NCBI GenBank assembly: GCA_001801685.1
Contig: MGYJ01000013.1
Coordinates: 885 to 35,616, forward strand
Length of the DNA stretch: 34,732 nucleotides
Direction: 5' to 3'
DNA from: Gammaproteobacteria bacterium RIFCSPHIGHO2_12_FULL_63_22
GTDB taxonomy: Bacteria; Pseudomonadota; Gammaproteobacteria; Xanthomonadales; Xanthomonadaceae
Part shown: positions 28,562-34,664 of the stretch, in pieces
How positions within the stretch are numbered: the stretch's first letter is position 1
How the letters are laid out: each line of letters opens with the position of its first letter
Notes under the pieces: model-generated
What the model was told of the DNA's origin: nothing
Database searches by the model: none
Seen by the model: the letters and a program-made list of their open reading frames with translations, nothing else
Program-made: the position numbers and the translations under genes

Positions 28562-28892
28562 GCCCTGGTGATAGACCAAGAGCCGGTTTCGGCGAAGAGG
28601 GCCTTTCCGCCGGCGGGAATTTTCCCGCCGGCAAGCGGAGGTTTGTTGCGGTAACTGTAATTTCCAGGTCGACAGACCAAGTGTGGGCGCACGTGTCGCA
28701 TTTGAAATAATGTCGACTCTTACCCTCGTATTGGCCGTTGTGCCGGCCCTGTCCGCCGCGGCCCTCGCCGCAGATCGGGCATTTCTTCCAGTCCGCGGAA
28801 AGTTTCGGAGCTGTGGGGATCGCGGTTTCCGGCATGGCCGGCCGGGTCTGCGGCGCGGGAGCCGGCGGGCGCTTGGAATCCTGTCGTTTCAT
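28530..28892 (-). CDS. Zinc-ribbon protein (120 aa)
   Basis: Two cysteine pairs, C-P-I-C (near residue 39) and C-D-T-C (near 65), with H-N-G-Q-Y-E-G-K-S-R-H-Y-F-K between, form a probable zinc ribbon. The flanks are proline-rich and disordered. ATG at 28892 has GGGAGAG 7 bases upstream and overlaps the terminase stop (ATGA); a GTG two codons earlier is in frame. Position between terminase and portal suggests an accessory DNA-packaging or DNA-binding role, which is inference. Confidence 0.7.
   Translation of the reverse strand: MKRQDSKRPPAPAPQTRPAMPETAIPTAPKLSADWKKCPICGEGRGGQGRHNGQYEGKSRHYFKCDTCAHTWSVDLEITVTATNLRLPAGKFPPAERPSSPKPALGLSPGHAGNSAKRTD
28609..28632. repeat. Palindrome with 11-bp arms in the zinc-ribbon gene
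   Basis: Arms GCCGGCGGGAA and TTCCCGCCGGC around two T bases, coding P-A-G-K-F-P-P-A. No T tract follows on either strand, so it is not a terminator; it may be a dispersed palindrome like that at 3352. Confidence 0.55.
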
Positions 28893-30814
28893 AACCACTC
28901 TCTCCCATCAGATCGGTCGTCGCCGGAAAAGTTCGATGCACGTTTCGCGGCGACGGCCTGAGATACGCTTGGCCGTGGCGGCAGTGAATCCCAAGTCCGG
29001 CCGTCCTCGGTAACGCAGAGTGCGGCCGTGCGCGCGTATCGCAAACAATCGCGAAAGTCGTTTGGTCCGCGCTTCTTCCAGGTGTGGACTTCATAACCGT
29101 CGTCGTTCTTTTCTTCTGCCGGATATTCATTCTGGAGTTCTGCCAGAAAGGTCACGTCAAGACCGATGTCGGCGGCCAGAGTCCAGCCGGGATCTTCAGG
29201 CGTGATCAAATCATTGTTGAGCACGCGCTGAATCCAGCGCTGCGTGCGCTCCGTGTTGACGTTGACCAAGGTTAGCCCGCCCAACTTGGCCTTGTGATTC
29301 AGATTTGATTCGGCTTCGCCGCGGGTCAACTGAAAGCCTTGGTCGAACCGGCTGGTCGAGTGGCCTTTGCAGGGCCAGCAGCCGTGGATCCGGCGGCAGA
29401 AAGCGTAGACGTCTTCCGTCCGATTGCCGTCGCCGGAATCGATCAAGGTCACGCCCGGCCGGAGCGGATTGCCGCCGTCCGCATGAGAGTAATAGCTCTT
29501 CGGTCCATTTATGATTTCGGCGAGCTCATCCCAGGTGGCGCAGAAACCGTAATCCACGACGTGGCCGCGGCCGCGGGGTCCCCAGACGCAGACAATCCAT
29601 TTCAGCCGGTCGCCCTGCACGTCGACCCCGCGCGTCGTGAAGATTGACCAGGCGGGGCAAATCCGCTGCGGATCGCCGGTACAGAGTCTCGCAGCGAGTT
29701 CCGTACCCGAAAGTTGCGGCGGCGCTTCGTCCCACGTGAGGCCAAGCCATGAGTTCACAAAATTTCTCCTCTTTTCATTGTGCCGGCAGGATTCGAGCCA
29801 CTCCTTGGCGATCAAGCCCCAGGTGATCGAGGGCAGCAGGGAATGGAGCGTGGACAACGGACCAAAGGATGCATCGGGACCAGGTCGCAGCGGCTTGCCT
29901 TTGAGTTTGCCTGAACCGGCGACGGTCATCCCCTCAGGAACCCACACGCCGGAATTCAGCATGGCGTACCGGTGACCATCGAGAATCTTCTTTTGGCAGT
30001 GGCTGCATTCGTACCACGCGGTTTCCAGGGCGACGGTTGGATCGCTGCGACCGCTGGCGGGTTTCTCCCACTTAAGGCCGCCCGGTTTGTCGCGCTCGCC
30101 GAAGACCAGCTCCTGCCAGCCGTTGCAGCGCGGGCAGGGGACTTCCCGCCGGCGGTTGTCCGCGGCGAGCCGGGCCGGTTCGATGCGGGAATCCTTTTTC
30201 GTCGCCGGTGTCGACATCTTGAGGATTTTGTGCCGACAGAAACCCTTCGCCCGCTCGCGCATCAGTTCGGCGAAATCCGCCTCGTCGGATTTCCGCCGGG
30301 ACATTTTATCGATTTCATTCAAGACGACGACGAACGCCGCATAGTCGGCGGCGGCGGACGGCGAGCCGGACCAGGCTCCGTGAATCAGCATGTTCGCGAG
30401 TTCGATTTTGTCTGATCCGCGGCGGCCTGGCGGCGGCAACACGTCCGCCAGCTCGGGGATCTTTTCCAGGATCCTCCAGAGACGTTTCAGAACTCGCTTG
30501 ACCGACCGGATATCGGCATCCCCCCACGCGCAGGGGTTCGGGTTGTAGCGCGCGATCCGCGCGAGGCAGGCCTGGGCGAAGACCGTCTTGCCGAGCCTGG
30601 AGGCCCATTGCAGGGAGATCGTGCGGATGTAGGGATCATCGAAACAGTCGAGCGGCTCGCGGGCGTGCGGGAACAGATCGAGGCGGAACTTGCCGCGGAT
30701 TTCGGAGCCGGGCGGGAGCGTGATCTCGCGCTCGGCGAAGTCCGCGGTCCGCACGAACGGCGTCGGGCGGATGACGTCGCAGACCGGAGCGGTGATCCCG
30801 AAGAACAAACCCAC
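28889..30814 (-). CDS. Terminase large subunit, GpA family (641 aa)
   Basis: The DNA-packaging motor and nuclease. A GTG start at 30814 with AGGAG 8 bases upstream is preferred; the ribosome site spans the stop of the small subunit, and no ATG precedes residue 142. Motifs: ATPase Walker-A-like W-A-S-R-L-G-K-T (70-77), Walker B V-V-V-L-N-E-I-D-K (162-170), M-S-T-P (200-203), a zinc-binding pair C-P-R-C (227-230) and C-S-H-C (270-273) typical of the GpA family, and nuclease acidic residues in V-D-V-Q-G-D-R (Asp398) and L-I-D-S-G (Asp459). C-terminus G-P-N-D-F-R-D-C also conserved. The family suggests packaging by recognition of cos-type or similar sites. Confidence 0.95.
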   Translation of the reverse strand: MGLFFGITAPVCDVIRPTPFVRTADFAEREITLPPGSEIRGKFRLDLFPHAREPLDCFDDPYIRTISLQWASRLGKTVFAQACLARIARYNPNPCAWGDADIRSVKRVLKRLWRILEKIPELADVLPPPGRRGSDKIELANMLIHGAWSGSPSAAADYAAFVVVLNEIDKMSRRKSDEADFAELMRERAKGFCRHKILKMSTPATKKDSRIEPARLAADNRRREVPCPRCNGWQELVFGERDKPGGLKWEKPASGRSDPTVALETAWYECSHCQKKILDGHRYAMLNSGVWVPEGMTVAGSGKLKGKPLRPGPDASFGPLSTLHSLLPSITWGLIAKEWLESCRHNEKRRNFVNSWLGLTWDEAPPQLSGTELAARLCTGDPQRICPAWSIFTTRGVDVQGDRLKWIVCVWGPRGRGHVVDYGFCATWDELAEIINGPKSYYSHADGGNPLRPGVTLIDSGDGNRTEDVYAFCRRIHGCWPCKGHSTSRFDQGFQLTRGEAESNLNHKAKLGGLTLVNVNTERTQRWIQRVLNNDLITPEDPGWTLAADIGLDVTFLAELQNEYPAEEKNDDGYEVHTWKKRGPNDFRDCLRYARTAALCVTEDGRTWDSLPPRPSVSQAVAAKRASNFSGDDRSDGREWL

Positions 30815-30819
30815 GACGA

Positions 30820-31299
30820 TCACTCCTGCGGCGAGCGTTTGAGATCCTCGGCGAGCTGCTCGCGGCGGCGGTCGAGTTCCGCCTTGATCCGCGGGCCGAT
30901 CGCCTTCTTGCATTTCTTGCAGCACTCGCCGGCGAGCAGATCGGGCAACTGTTCGCACCAATCGGCCAGGCCGGAGAGGATGTTCGCGAGGAAGAGTTCG
31001 TAACTCGGCCGCGGGAGGAGTTCCTTCTCCTGCTCCTGCAGGTGCAGCTCTTCCTTGCGTGTGCGGATTTTGTCCCGCTTCAGGGCCTCGGCGGCGCGGG
31101 CCACCTTGAGCGTCTGCATCTGCGTGCCGCGGTCGGATCCCTTCTTCGCCAGTCGATCTCGCCAGGCGGTGATCGCATCGAGATCGTAGCCGGCTGAACA
31201 ATCCGGAAAGTCGGGATGCTGTTCGCGCCAGTCGCGGAGCGTCCGCGCTGTGACGCCCAGCTTGTCGGCCGCTTCCTTTTGTTCCGCGACGATCGCCAT
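30820..31299 (-). CDS. Terminase small subunit, Nu1-like (159 aa)
   Basis: The N-terminal winged helix (residues 5-55: A-A-D-K-L-G-V-T-A-R-T-L-R-D-W-R-E-Q-H-P) recognises the packaging site; the middle (65-105) is a long Lys/Arg/Glu coiled coil, and residues 110-140 include C-C-K-K-C-K-K. Length and layout match lambda Nu1-like proteins. The ATG is preceded by AGGG about 11 bases upstream. The gene ends six bases before the large subunit start, giving coupled translation. It is the first gene of the late operon; the divergent intergenic region lies to its right. Confidence 0.85.
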   Translation of the reverse strand: MAIVAEQKEAADKLGVTARTLRDWREQHPDFPDCSAGYDLDAITAWRDRLAKKGSDRGTQMQTLKVARAAEALKRDKIRTRKEELHLQEQEKELLPRPSYELFLANILSGLADWCEQLPDLLAGECCKKCKKAIGPRIKAELDRRREQLAEDLKRSPQE

Positions 31300-31431
31300 C
31301 CATCGTGTTCCCTACACCCGTACAGGACCGGGGCGAGAACGCCGCCGGAAGTCCGAAAATTCTTCCCTCAAGCCTGCCTTGGACTTAGCCTAAAACCGCT
31401 GTTTCCCAGCAGAATTCCTTGTATTTTTGCC

Positions 31432-31532: not shown

Positions 31533-31805
31533 ATGGCGACAACTCAACCGACTGTCGGGCACGTCGTTTACCAGGCAGAGGGCGAGTGGATCGACGGCCG
31601 GCCGATCTCTTTTTCCGGTGCGGGCCATTTGTCGGAAGCTGACGCTCGCGACGAAATCTCCAATCGCCTTGCCATGCTCAGCACGGCCGAGGCGAAGCGA
31701 GTACGATCCTGTTGGGTGAGGCCGTACAAAGTCACGTCGCTCGACGAAGATGCTGCGGATGGCATCGGTTCGATGGAATCCTGCGGCCCTGGCGTCGCAA
31801 TCTGA
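31533..31805 (+). CDS. Hypothetical phage protein (90 aa)
   Basis: The first gene of the rightward cluster, with GGAGA 7 bases before the ATG. Contains V-V-Y-Q-A-E-G-E-W-I-D-G-R-P-I-S-F-S-G-A-G-H, then a helix with E-A-D-A-R-D-E-I-S-N-R-L. No recognised family. It is followed by a 117-base gap that contains strong inverted repeats before the next gene. Confidence 0.6.
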   Translation: MATTQPTVGHVVYQAEGEWIDGRPISFSGAGHLSEADARDEISNRLAMLSTAEAKRVRSCWVRPYKVTSLDEDAADGIGSMESCGPGVAI

Positions 31806-31841
31806 ACCATCCCCGCTTGCAGGCGGCTGACTCTCCAGTCT

Positions 31842-31906
31842 CGCGCGGCGTTCATCATGGGCTGCAACCCGAACGCCGCGCGGGGCGTTTCTTAAGCCCC
31901 GTTCGG
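31842..31906 (+). promoter_or_regulatory. Mutually exclusive leader hairpins
   Basis: Hairpin 1: CGCGCGGCGTTC (31842-31853) with GAACGCCGCGCG (31871-31882), perfect 12 bp. Hairpin 2: CCGAAC (31869-31874) plus GGGGC (31882-31886) with GCCCC-GTTCGG (31896-31906). They share bases 31871-31874 and 31882, so only one can form. Hairpin 2 ends next to the AAAGG ribosome site of the following gene. Confidence 0.5.
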
Positions 31907-31922
31907 AAAGGTTGCGCTCATC

Positions 31923-32363
31923 GTGCGCGCCGAGATCAAAAAACAAGCAAAAAAATTGGGCATCCCGCTGGATGTTGTCGCCGACACGTATCGCGAACTG
32001 CGGGCCTATGAACGCCAAGCCCGCGATTGGGAATGGACGATCCGCCGGCGGGTCTGGGAAATGTATTCCTACAGCCCCGAATCGAACGAGTTCTGGCGGC
32101 ATGGCATGCACGTCCGTTATGCCCGCGCCTTCGGCGAAGGGGATCGGACGCTGATCCCCCGCTGGGATGAAACGGCCGACGAACTGGCGATGGAGTTCCC
32201 CGAGCTGGCCGTCGACGGCGATCCGGCGGAACGTCTCTTTGAATTCATCGCCCGGCGCTACGAACCGCTGCCGACAGCGGAAGACACCTGGAAGCAAGCT
32301 GTTGATGTGTGCCTCGAGCGCGTCGCGGAATGGGCCGTCGACGCCGAACCCGTCCCCTTTTGA
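31923..32363 (+). CDS. Hypothetical protein (146 aa)
   Basis: GTG start with AAAGG about 11 bases upstream, just after the leader hairpins. Basic N-terminal helix (M-R-A-E-I-K-K-Q-A-K-K-L-G-I-P-L), then a Trp/Tyr-rich segment (Y-E-R-Q-A-R-D-W-E-W-T-I-R-R-R-V-W) and acidic C-terminal half (E-L-A-M-E-F-P-E-L-A-V). Reads as a soluble protein with helical character. No family recognised. It is followed 11 bases later by the ASCH gene on the same strand. Confidence 0.6.
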   Translation: MRAEIKKQAKKLGIPLDVVADTYRELRAYERQARDWEWTIRRRVWEMYSYSPESNEFWRHGMHVRYARAFGEGDRTLIPRWDETADELAMEFPELAVDGDPAERLFEFIARRYEPLPTAEDTWKQAVDVCLERVAEWAVDAEPVPF

Positions 32364-32374
32364 AAGGAAACCAC

Positions 32375-32752
32375 ATGCGAGCAATAACGCTAAAACGAGA
32401 ATGGGCCTGGCTGGTGGCCCAGGGTCACAAGCAGATCGAGAACCGCACCTGGGCGACGCGGTACCGGGGGCCGCTGGCGATTCATGCCGGTAAGGGGTCC
32501 GATCCTGCGGCCAGTGTGCTGTGCGGACGGCTGGGAATTGCATTGCCGGAGGTCCTTCCCGAAAGCGTGTTGCTCTGTGTGGTGGATTTGGTCGACATCA
32601 TCGAACTGAGTGGGCTGGATGGGCCGCGTTCCGATCCGTTTGCGGTTGGCCCGTGGTGCTGGATGCTCGAGAACGTCCGGTTGCTTGATCCGCCGATCGC
32701 CTGCGGCGGACGCCAGTGCCTGTGGACGCCGCCGGCTGGACTGGTGGCGTAA
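32375..32752 (+). CDS. ASCH-domain protein (125 aa)
   Basis: The frame is open earlier, but ATG at 32375 has AAAGGAAA 8 bases upstream. The protein begins M-R-A-I-T-L-K-R-E-W-A-W-L-V-A-Q-G-H-K, then I-E-N-R-T-W-A-T-R-Y-R-G-P-L-A-I-H-A-G-K, the ASCH (PUA-like) signature: x-I-x-L, G-x-K-x-I-E-x-R, R-G, I-H-A. ASCH domains bind or process RNA and nucleotides; in phage they are often single-domain proteins of unknown target. Its 3' end overlaps, in antisense, the 3' end of the convergent ABC-GNAT gene by 155 bases. Confidence 0.88.
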   Translation: MRAITLKREWAWLVAQGHKQIENRTWATRYRGPLAIHAGKGSDPAASVLCGRLGIALPEVLPESVLLCVVDLVDIIELSGLDGPRSDPFAVGPWCWMLENVRLLDPPIACGGRQCLWTPPAGLVA

Positions 32753-33860
32753 TCCCGAACCGGCGCGCCTCGTCCGGTCGAGCCGGGCCGACATAACGAA
32801 AACTCGCCGTGAGTCGATCGAGGGCCGCCGTCTTCGCCATGCCGGTTTTTGTCGAGGAATGGCCTTGAGGGCTCATCAGCGACGGCAGCCGGATCATTCG
32901 CCAGAGAGGCGAGCGGGACCGGTGGGCGATCATGCTGGGGTGGCTGGTTGTCGAGTGCACGCCCTTGCCGAGCGAGGCGAACAGACCCATCACGAATTCG
33001 CTGAGCGCGTTGCCGATGCCGATGCCCTGGAAGTCGGGCAGGCATACCGAACGATGCTCGCGCCAGAATCCGCCGTTGGCGTGCGGCGAGTGAATCATCG
33101 CCGTAAAGGCCGCGGGTTGGCCCTGAAACAGAGCGACGAAACAACAGGCGGATTTCATCAGGTTGGACGCTAGATAGTGATGCCGCTTGAATAGCTGCCA
33201 TGCCGACGAGTGGACGCGGACAATCGTGAGGCGGATGGGCGGGCGGCGCCTTTCCAACCTCCAGACGAACCGGCCCGTGGCGGGTTCGTAGATCCAGTCC
33301 GGATCTAGCCAGTCGACGATATCGAAATGGCAGGAGATCGCGACGAATTTGCCGGGGCCGCGGCGGATCGTTTTGGCGACGGCCGCCGATCCGATCTGCG
33401 CGACGGTGCGATCCACGACGGAGGTGAACTCATCGATGGCGACCAGATCCCGATTCTCGGTCAGCGCGCGGGCGAGCGTGACGCGGAACTGCTCGCCGTT
33501 GGAGAGGCAGCCGAACGGCCGCAACCAGCTCGGGGGAGAACTGAAGCCGACCGAGGAGAGCGCCCCTGTGATGTCAGTGATCGAGAGCGATGCCGGGAAG
33601 GCGTCGATCACGGACCGATCGGCCGGCCATTCGTAGCCGTGCACCAGGGCGTCGCCGAACAGTTCGCGCGCGATCGTCGACTTCCCGCAGCCGGACGGGC
33701 CGACGATCAGGCCGATCTGCCAGGGGCGGGCTTCGAGGGGCAGGTCGACCGTCCAGGACTGTTCCGACCGTTTCGCCGGCGGAACGTCGAACATGCCTTC
33801 GAGCTGCATCACCCGCGGCGAGCGGACGACAGGGACCGAACGGGTGATCTCGGCGTGCAT
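32598..33860 (-). CDS. ABC-type ATPase fused to a GNAT acyltransferase (420 aa)
   Basis: Residues 20-205 are an ABC ATPase: Walker A G-P-S-G-C-G-K-S-T (54-62), signature L-S-N-G-E-Q-F-R (119-126), Walker B D-L-V-A-I-D-E-F (138-145), H-switch in S-C-H (178). There are no membrane segments, so it is not a transporter. Residues 210-355 are a GNAT domain: R-H-H-Y-L (226-230), strands C-C-F-V-A-L-F and A-A-F-T-A-M-I, and P-D-F-Q-G-I-G-I-G-N-A-L (275-286), an acyl-CoA pyrophosphate loop. This architecture is that of COG2401 ('ABC ATPase with predicted acetyltransferase'). ATG at 33860 has AAGGAG; nine upstream codons are open. The last about 50 residues, antisense to ASCH, are low-complexity. Confidence 0.88.
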   Translation of the reverse strand: MHAEITRSVPVVRSPRVMQLEGMFDVPPAKRSEQSWTVDLPLEARPWQIGLIVGPSGCGKSTIARELFGDALVHGYEWPADRSVIDAFPASLSITDITGALSSVGFSSPPSWLRPFGCLSNGEQFRVTLARALTENRDLVAIDEFTSVVDRTVAQIGSAAVAKTIRRGPGKFVAISCHFDIVDWLDPDWIYEPATGRFVWRLERRRPPIRLTIVRVHSSAWQLFKRHHYLASNLMKSACCFVALFQGQPAAFTAMIHSPHANGGFWREHRSVCLPDFQGIGIGNALSEFVMGLFASLGKGVHSTTSHPSMIAHRSRSPLWRMIRLPSLMSPQGHSSTKTGMAKTAALDRLTASFRYVGPARPDEARRFGITPPVQPAASTGTGVRRRRSADQATGRSRASSTTGQPQTDRNAAHPAHSVR

Positions 33861-33874
33861 GGGGCTCCTTCGTG

Positions 33875-33907
33875 GATTACTTGACAAGCATGGCTTGTCA
33901 AGTAATC
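33875..33907. promoter_or_regulatory. 33-bp palindrome between ParB-like and ABC-GNAT genes
   Basis: Perfect 15-bp arms GATTACTTGACAAGC / GCTTGTCAAGTAATC around ATG. It overlaps the ParB-like stop and ends 15 bases before the ABC-GNAT start codon; its inner part contains TTGACA on the plus strand. No T tract follows, so a terminator is unlikely; an operator or RNA stem hiding the AAGGAG site is more likely. Confidence 0.6.
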
Positions 33908-34664
33908 AGGCGATGAGCGCTCGGACTTCCAGGCCGTCTTCCGCCTGGAGCCGTTCGAGCAATTCCTTCTGCTGATTCTCGTTCTGGCACGTGACGAGAA
34001 TCTTCCACGCCGAATCGGGCGGGGCCGACGTCGTCGGCTTGCCGCTTTGCTCGGCGGGATCAGATCCGCCTTTGCTCCGCGGAGCCGGCGTCTCCTCGGC
34101 GGCGGCCAGGGCCTCGTTGATGTCGGCGTCGAGATCGCTGAACATGCGCGAGAGTTCGCCGTCGAGTCCGTCCAGCGGAAGTTCCGCCAGGGCCTCGCGG
34201 AGCATATCCTCGTTCCATTCGGACAGCTCGGCAGTCCGATTGTCGGCGATGGCGAAGCCGGTCGCCACCTGGTCGTCTTCCGTGACGAAGATCGCCGGGA
34301 CGTGGGTCCATCCGTTGGCGAGCGCCGCCTGTACCGTGCCATTGCCGGCCCGGACGATCTTCCGGTCGCCGGCGAGCTGCACCACGACGTTCTTTCGGAT
34401 GCCGTAAACCCGCAGGGATGCGGCGATGGCCGCCAGATTCCGTTCATCATGCGTGCGGGCGTTCTTCGGGTCGAGCACCAGCTCGGCGATCGGCACGGCC
34501 AGCGGCCGCAGCCGTTCGTCGATGTAGGGCAGGTCGGTGATTTCGCCGGAAATCACCGATGAAGGCAGGGACGATCCGACTGCGGCCGCAGACGGATCGT
34601 CGGCAGAGGGAAGGGGGGCCTGGCTGGCGTCATCTTGGCGGGTTTTGGCACGTTTTTTGGGCAT
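33906..34664 (-). CDS. ParB/Srx N-terminal domain protein (252 aa)
   Basis: ParB/Srx-type nucleotide-binding domain at residues 54-145: V-P-I-A-E-L-V-L-D-P-K-N-A-R-T-H-D-E-R-N-L-A, I-A-A-S-L-R-V-Y-G, then R-A-G-N-G-T-V-Q-A-A (GxG box II) and I-A-D-N-R-T-A-E. ParB domains of this kind bind CTP/ATP. No HTH DNA-binding domain follows, unlike true partition ParB; instead a Pro/Ser linker leads to W-K-I-L-V-T-C-Q-N-E-N-Q-Q-K-E-L-L-E-R-L (220-239), a conserved C-terminal module of phage and methylase-linked ParB-like proteins. N-terminal 35 residues Lys-rich, disordered. TTG 17 codons earlier is possible; ATG at 34664 preferred. Beyond it, the last 68 bases hold A/T runs only. Confidence 0.88.
   Translation of the reverse strand: MPKKRAKTRQDDASQAPLPSADDPSAAAVGSSLPSSVISGEITDLPYIDERLRPLAVPIAELVLDPKNARTHDERNLAAIAASLRVYGIRKNVVVQLAGDRKIVRAGNGTVQAALANGWTHVPAIFVTEDDQVATGFAIADNRTAELSEWNEDMLREALAELPLDGLDGELSRMFSDLDADINEALAAAEETPAPRSKGGSDPAEQSGKPTTSAPPDSAWKILVTCQNENQQKELLERLQAEDGLEVRALIA

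Follow-up and report, generated by a model that had tools for sequence, protein, structure and literature searches.

Three genes for proteins with nucleotide-handling domains lie beside the terminase genes in DNA of Gammaproteobacteria bacterium RIFCSPHIGHO2_12_FULL_63_22: one for a ParB/Srx-like protein, one for an ABC ATPase fused to a GNAT acyltransferase (hereafter ABC-GNAT), and one for an ASCH protein. Do they form a system that modifies DNA or nucleotides, as a sequence-only reading of this DNA had proposed with Mom of phage Mu in mind, and what would that system act on? As judged from its sequence, ABC-GNAT is a new member of the GNAT + ABC ATPase kind that is predicted to acylate DNA, and it is not a Mom. 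Its near-constant pairing with a ParB-like protein among closer relatives, together with two fusions of the two proteins, is new support added here.

Organization of the locus

The window (the whole stretch of DNA analyzed, 34,732 nt) covers positions 885–35616 of contig C13 (35,616 bases), i.e., nearly the whole contig, in a genome of 99 contigs. The contig is that of a phage, with terminase, portal, and capsid genes (Pfam and PHROG matches) and an integrase; a search for a terminal repeat of the contig detected none. All three ORFs exist where they had been placed (Table 1). The ParB-like and ABC-GNAT genes, both minus-strand, are upstream of the terminase genes. ASCH is encoded on the plus strand in a tail-to-tail arrangement with ABC-GNAT, whose 3′ end (residues 370–420) it overlaps by 155 nt. 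With ASCH on the opposite strand and with this overlap, the three genes are not one operon.

TABLE 1. Features of the locus, in window coordinates
Feature	Position	Strand	Remarks
ParB/Srx-like protein	33906..34664	-	ATG 34664; alternative upstream TTG 34715 possible
Inverted repeat, perfect, 15 bp, 3-nt loop	33875..33907	-	In the gap from the ParB stop to the ribosome site of ABC-GNAT
ABC ATPase-GNAT fusion, 420 aa	32598..33860	-	ATG 33860 preceded by AAGGAG
GNAT domain (ABC-GNAT residues 203–372)	32745..33254	-	Motifs HHYL, DFQGIGIG
ASCH protein, 125 aa, TRIP4-like	32375..32752	+	PF04266 24.3 bits; phrog_3193 4e-35
146-aa protein	31923..32363	+	11 nt upstream of ASCH, same strand; relatives in loci L142, L151
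Terminase small subunit	30820..31299	-	phrog_57 1e-12; downstream of the ParB/ABC-GNAT pair
ORF with terminase large subunit (GpA)	28889..31303	-	PF05876 8.5e-43, PF20454 9.5e-39

The 66-nt stretch with the inverted repeat has an RNA fold of −24.1 kcal/mol (z −5.1), and no second copy of the repeat occurs in the genome. The promoter scan found no promoter, and terminator-like matches are at chance level. Assignment to a defense system was rejected, as none of the PADLOC matches (methyltransferase, specificity subunit, ATPases) is specific.

An ABC ATPase fused to a GNAT domain

The fusion described by the sequence-only reading is borne out: ABC_tran and GNAT domains are present in one ORF, and AlphaFold folds both with high confidence (mean pLDDT 88.4; 91.5 for the GNAT alone). 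Values below 50 occur in residues 392–405 and 407–420, all inside the stretch that overlaps ASCH. The match to phrog_11143 is full-length (1.9e-104, positions 3–353 of 357). In Pfam, ABC_tran scores 37.9 bits, over its cut-off of 25, and Acetyltransf_7 scores 20.2 bits, short of its cut-off of 27. In alignments of 25 diverse and 65 closer members, the Walker A Lys, the L-S-x-G signature, the Walker B Asp-Glu, and the H-loop His are invariant or nearly so, as are F..H-Y and Q-G in the GNAT half. The R-H-H-Y-L stretch remarked on at first reading does occur, as FKRHHYL, but only F..H-Y-L is conserved throughout the family. The QGxGxG motif is kept and, with the GNAT fold recognized by sequence and model, places the protein in the acyl-CoA-binding GNAT type, with CoA binding as a prediction. 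The 50 matches listed in the full-length PDB fold search are all, judged by their names, ABC-type ATPases, which makes them uninformative on the GNAT half.

Matches to ABC-GNAT at E ≤ 1e-5 are found in 70 of the 50,697 records of the phage collection, and 10 of them cover at least 80% of the query; the weakest among the matches listed are ABC-only. In the lactococcal, streptococcal, and Oenococcus phages examined, the ABC and GNAT halves are separate adjacent genes, annotated as siderophore or ABC transporter and as unknown. A spread among hosts was rejected: phrog_11143 finds matches in 59 of 61 genomes, but it does so in each of the 14 control genomes too, and these matches are partial, to ABC or to GNAT; among the matches listed, the window alone covers both domains.

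For a GNAT coupled with an ABC ATPase, the relevant passage of PMC7824862 predicts an uncharacterized acyl modification of a DNA base, with QAX98348.1 as example, and credits the prediction to its authors' earlier work (Iyer 2013). The window's ABC-GNAT matches QAX98348.1 across both domains (query residues 28–390, E 8e-52, 34.5% identity) and shares with that system the protein family, the two domains, and intact ABC motifs. The setting differs: the window member, flanked by an upstream ParB and a convergent ASCH, is in a phage contig of ~36 kb, whereas the examples in that passage come from jumbo phages, and at those examined (L067, L076) no ParB was found beside the gene. The DNA or nucleotide modification role of the sequence-only reading is thus already predicted in print for the same family, and we infer it here as the best reading. 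In our searches of the open-licence literature, we found no experimental work on the ABC-GNAT family or on the DNA acylation system predicted in 2013.

In its record, QAX98348.1 is a protein of Aeromonas phage AsFcp_2; the text of PMC7824862 connects this accession with Tenacibaculum phage pT24. In the phage collection, the window's ABC-GNAT has matches in both phages.

We consider it fairly probable that the system is an ATP-gated base acylation that protects phage DNA, where we infer the substrate, the acyl group, and the role of each part. The ParB-like protein and ABC-GNAT would constitute one phage-encoded modification machine. The GNAT half would transfer an acyl group from acyl-CoA (supplied, in the window's phage, by the host) to a base of the phage DNA, at an amino group. 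ATP would bring the ABC half to dimerize, and its hydrolysis would serve both to engage DNA, by loading or by movement along it, and to gate acyl transfer. Recruitment or licensing of the machine would fall to the ParB-like protein, as a binder of nucleotide or DNA. With the pair made beside the packaging genes, the DNA would be marked before packaging and host restriction enzymes would not cut it. Reading or handling of the acylated base could be an optional task of the convergent ASCH. Membership in the family of QAX98348.1 (as named in PMC7824862) and the conservation of catalytic motifs in both domains argue for such a system.

The ParB-like protein and its pairing with ABC-GNAT

The protein encoded upstream of ABC-GNAT is, as first read, of the ParB/Srx type (phrog_620, 4e-25), and no HTH family matched it in Pfam up to E 1. 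The ParB-like domain is at residues ~74–180 of the TTG-started ORF. Pfam ParB_N is below its cut-off (21.9 vs. 26.3 bits), and Noc in the PDB is matched by phmmer at 8e-6. At the P motif, AGNGTVQAA aligns with AGERRWRAV of Noc, and the GERR-type arginines are absent. A canonical ParB (CTPase, segregation) was rejected on this P motif and on the HTH result. In the proteins for which PMC12704722 reports it in the part concerned with this motif, replacing the conserved P-motif arginine abolished nucleotide binding; the absence of the canonical arginines from the window's ParB counts against the proposed machine. The domain also matches the N-terminal part of phrog_498 (3e-21), a DNA methyltransferase family, and so resembles the ParB-type partners of phage DNA methyltransferases. 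This match favors DNA as the substrate. The difference is that the window's ParB goes with a GNAT, not with a methyltransferase, and is a separate protein (of the loci surveyed, L180 and L219 alone have fusions).

The pairing was surveyed at 217 loci: 118 on viral contigs (38 from one search and the best 80 of 595 from another, with some contigs in both), 80 genomic (the best 80 of 431), and 19 in annotated phages (hand-picked among 60 listed of the 70 matching records). "Directly upstream" means that a ParB-family ORF overlaps the beginning of the ABC frame or is no more than 250 nt upstream of it. Such an ORF is present at 111 of 118 viral, 65 of 80 genomic, and 10 of 19 annotated phage loci, and in 140 of 159 testable clusters (80% identity), the viral and genomic sets leaning to the window's closer relatives. 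Seven viral or genomic misses had <650 nt of upstream sequence. At 12 of the 15 testable misses in these sets, a same-strand ParB match is located 252–2532 nt upstream, and at L038 none was found upstream. At two loci, L180 (611 aa) and L219 (584 aa), a single frame encodes a fusion in which ABC-GNAT (E 6e-163 and 8e-141) comes after the ParB domain (E 2e-25 and 7e-41); the two loci are from two planctomycete MAGs, where assembly error is possible.

The pairing and the fusions argue for a joint role in DNA acylation; the nine annotated phages without a directly upstream ParB argue against it. Six of these nine, aligned, are 33%–37% identical to the window protein, and phages that do carry ParB are equally distant (LE3 and Pmp13, 29%; BiggityBass, 35%; NHagos, 36%). 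In Komp_PAO1_1 (L073), a 49-aa ParB-like remnant upstream was left out of the count. A terminase is present within ~1.1 kb after ABC-GNAT in seven of the 19 annotated phages. For Leptospira phage LE3, a table in PMC6078989 gives the order ParB-like gene, directly adjoining ABC gene, and, further on, terminase, which agrees with the annotation of this phage.

Relation to Mom

Mom of phage Mu is a GNAT (PMC7824862, in its account of phage GNATs), and the window's GNAT half had been likened to it. Profile searches do not sustain that assignment. Pfam Mom (PF25680) has no match in ABC-GNAT up to E 1 (2e-75 for the Mu Mom control). HH comparison with eight diverse Moms gives a probability of 1.8% one way and 7.4% the other, and with a 31-sequence set (Mu Mom and close relatives) 0.1%. 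In the viral fold library, the top two matches of the GNAT model are members of its own family, followed by assorted acetyltransferases, and the only recognized Mom homolog among the 50 matches listed is LP65 Orf128 (rank 37, E 8e-4). With no Pfam Mom match, insignificant HH values, and a distant fold rank, ABC-GNAT is a GNAT but not a Mom, and Mom membership was rejected. A point against DNA acylation is that no special closeness of the GNAT to Mom, relative to other GNATs, could be detected. Mom of Mu (PF25680; PDB 8bv8) is, like the window protein, a GNAT, and the H-Y motif is present in all eight aligned Moms; Mom also has a ParB neighbor in some phages and occupies the same genomic slot as ABC-GNAT in one phage pair. 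Unlike ABC-GNAT, Mom is without an ATPase domain, and the eight aligned Moms lack the QGxGxG motif.

The pair is formed by two Arthrobacter phages. Sonny has, in order, gp68, ParB, gp70, and Mom, with a DNA-binding protein and a sliding clamp on the other strand; EastWest has gp73, ParB, ABC-GNAT, two small genes, the DNA-binding protein, and the clamp. The flanking proteins are 65%, 55% (ParB), 80%, and 46% identical, and the ABC-GNAT of EastWest has no match within the Sonny stretch. A putative Mom-like function of ABC-GNAT is supported by this one same-site replacement, which favors DNA acylation. In Microbacterium phage Antuna, ParB is directly before Mom; in Sonny, one small gene is between them. 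Taken with EastWest and the phrog_498 match, these arrangements indicate that one ParB type goes with Mom, ABC-GNAT, and DNA methyltransferases. Mom and ABC-GNAT occur together in Aeromonas phage PX29; the two are thus not simply interchangeable, and this weighs against DNA acylation.

The ASCH protein

The ASCH match is above the Pfam cut-off (24.3 vs. 21.2 bits), and the nearest solved structure is the ASCH domain of human TRIP4 (Activating signal cointegrator 1). There is somewhat less than an even chance that ASCH is a functionally unlinked mobile phage gene at this junction, independently of the other alternatives below. Its opposite strand fits such a gene, as does its distribution: an ASCH convergent with and adjoining ABC-GNAT occurs in only 20 of 217 loci (co-directional and adjoining in one, elsewhere in 14) and in none of the 15 tree tips nearest to the window, L164 having an ASCH 1.2 kb downstream. 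The numbers near and far tell against it. There are 21 ASCH loci near ABC-GNAT and 14 elsewhere, where the near stretch is 180,715 of the 1,967,069 nt surveyed and elsewhere holds ~10 times more DNA (binomial p 1e-13 with loci and 3.5e-8 with clusters as the unit). A convergent adjoining ASCH is present at 13 of the 156 tips of a tree and requires nine parsimony changes (shuffled mean 12.6), i.e., the gene was repeatedly gained or lost beside ABC-GNAT. Enrichment and tree pattern together indicate an association that is non-random but optional. The survey of co-occurrence thus upholds the ParB pairing, the two fusions included, and leaves ASCH as a recurrent but minority neighbor on the other strand.

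YqfB, an ASCH protein, hydrolyzes N4-acylcytidine (PMC6972931, in the text that deals with this enzyme). The window's ASCH belongs to the same family as such amidohydrolases, which are marked by a Thr-Lys-Glu triad and an Arg, and keeps the Lys and Arg of the K..T.R motif. At what we take to be the position of the catalytic Thr24 (YqfB having been placed in the alignment by eye), 29 of 30 aligned ASCH proteins, the window's included, have Glu and one has Asp. YqfB-type amidohydrolase activity was rejected for the window's ASCH, as Glu replaces the catalytic Thr; its TRIP4-like relationship is a further difference from YqfB.

RNA or protein as target

The findings fit DNA, RNA, or protein as target alike, which counts against DNA acylation, and the modified base is a prediction. 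Could the ATPase-GNAT act on RNA, e.g., tRNA, and so alter host translation or shield phage RNA? We find this quite improbable. TmcA/NAT10 is an ATPase fused to a GNAT that makes N4-acetylcytidine, and is a precedent for ATPase-GNAT coupling on a nucleobase. The hydrolysis of N4-acylcytidine by an ASCH protein (YqfB, as described in PMC6972931) points the same way, but the Glu of the window's ASCH at the catalytic position does not. The ParB type, otherwise found with DNA methyltransferases and Mom, and the exchange with Mom at one site also speak for DNA.

Acylation of a host protein (e.g., RNA polymerase) for takeover, with the ParB-like protein as a nuclease, regulator, or adaptor, appears quite improbable. 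According to the passage on phage GNATs in PMC7824862, phiKMV Rac is one of the enzymes that modify the RNA polymerase of the host, and the sequence and fold matches of the GNAT outside its family are generic acetyltransferases. However, a protein target leaves the tight ParB pairing and the fusions, the ABC ATPase, and the Mom exchange unexplained.

Candidate acyl-supply genes

In Rhodococcus phage Jace and at viral locus L005, an aspartate decarboxylase (PanD; Pfam E 2e-33 and 1e-28) and a CoA-transferase III-like gene (N-terminal third of the family matched, 2e-8 and 3e-9) directly follow ABC-GNAT. By phmmer or local profile, the CoA-transferase III-like gene is present in 10 of 217 loci and PanD (by plain phmmer) in nine, all nine also with the CoA-transferase. 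The loci with both form six clusters, with four changes on the tree. At L183, PanD is upstream; at L185, the CoA-transferase is 1.9 kb downstream and no PanD was found. The PanD of Jace keeps the self-cleavage Gly-Ser; the PDB match of the CoA-transferase-like protein is to residues 2–90 only (E 0.007). These genes, like the formyltransferases described below, are candidate acyl suppliers, and the CoA-transferase with PanD favors DNA acylation. Against it, none of the three was found adjoining the pair in the window, and only a minority of the family has them.

PanZ, the factor that matures PanD, is itself a GNAT, and PanD is directly after ABC-GNAT in several loci. It is nevertheless most improbable that the GNAT acts as such a factor or acylates small molecules in pantothenate/CoA metabolism, with PanD in so few loci and GNAT motifs yet conserved throughout the alignments.

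Under DNA acylation, the PanD and CoA-transferase neighbors name one candidate acyl group. ABC-GNAT might be an ATP-gated counterpart of Mom, with an acyl group that differs between lineages according to the supply gene that follows. In the lineages with PanD and CoA-transferase, β-alanine made by the phage would be converted to β-alanyl-CoA and then give β-alanyl bases in its DNA; in the formyltransferase lineage, the mark would be completed in another way, and a matching TRIP4-like ASCH would read or erase it. This elaborate scheme is speculative and, taken as a whole, unlikely; to our knowledge, no β-alanyl base modification is known in DNA. The Mom exchange and these neighbors point to the cultured phages Jace and EastWest, with Sonny as comparison. 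The ParB pairing, the fusions, the Mom exchange, and the candidate supply genes make the 2013 prediction testable in cultured phages.

A formyltransferase adjoins in five of 217 loci, all of them annotated or named phage records, with one change on the tree. These formyltransferases keep HPSLLP or HPSPLP (Pfam was run on three), and for the one compared, that of Komp_PAO1_1, the nearest PDB structure is 10-formyltetrahydrofolate dehydrogenase.

Fusion and exchange of the ABC-GNAT gene

The ParB/Srx-like gene and the ABC ATPase-GNAT fusion gene (ABC-GNAT) occur naturally as one reading frame in two planctomycete MAGs (loci L180 and L219, see the table). In Arthrobacter phages, one and the same slot behind ParB is taken by Mom in Sonny (L280) and by ABC-GNAT in EastWest (L063).

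Coordinates of the fusions and of features near ABC-GNAT
Feature	Location	Strand	Remark
Natural single-frame ParB-ABC-GNAT fusion protein	L180 4302-6137		planctomycete MAG
Natural single-frame ParB-ABC-GNAT fusion protein	L219 4383-6137		planctomycete MAG
Two small genes ahead of ASCH	window 31533-32363	plus	
Perfect inverted repeat (15-bp arms, 3-nt loop)	window 33875-33907		ParB stop to ABC-GNAT ribosome site

Neighboring elements and genes

The inverted repeat may act as an attenuator, an operator, or an mRNA hairpin; a search allowing up to three mismatches returned no further copy in the genome. Family searches with the two small genes gave no convincing match. One of the two encodes a 146-aa protein; of the loci searched, just L142 and L151 have a relative of it, and both carry ASCH as well. 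At the left edge of the window, the run of C then N immediately before it (L040, about 855-884) is a scaffold gap, so that the contig may not hold the whole phage on this side.

In relatives, ABC-GNAT has genes for aspartate decarboxylase and a CoA-transferase III-like protein close by at L005, L006, L033, L062, L134, L175, L177, L183, and L205; these loci come from a phage, from viral contigs, and from genome contigs. A formyltransferase gene, with an HPSLLP/HPSPLP motif in the product, directly follows ABC-GNAT in L069, L072, L073, L079, and L080 (the L073 enzyme being closest to 10-formyltetrahydrofolate dehydrogenase).

Annotations and accessions

In L064, L066, L071, L077, and L078, separate genes encode the ABC and GNAT parts of this family, and their annotated names (siderophore transporter, ABC transporter, DNA polymerase, or unknown) are misleading. 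A passage of PMC7824862 ties QAX98348.1 (L067) to Tenacibaculum phage pT24; according to its record, the protein belongs instead to Aeromonas phage AsFcp_2.
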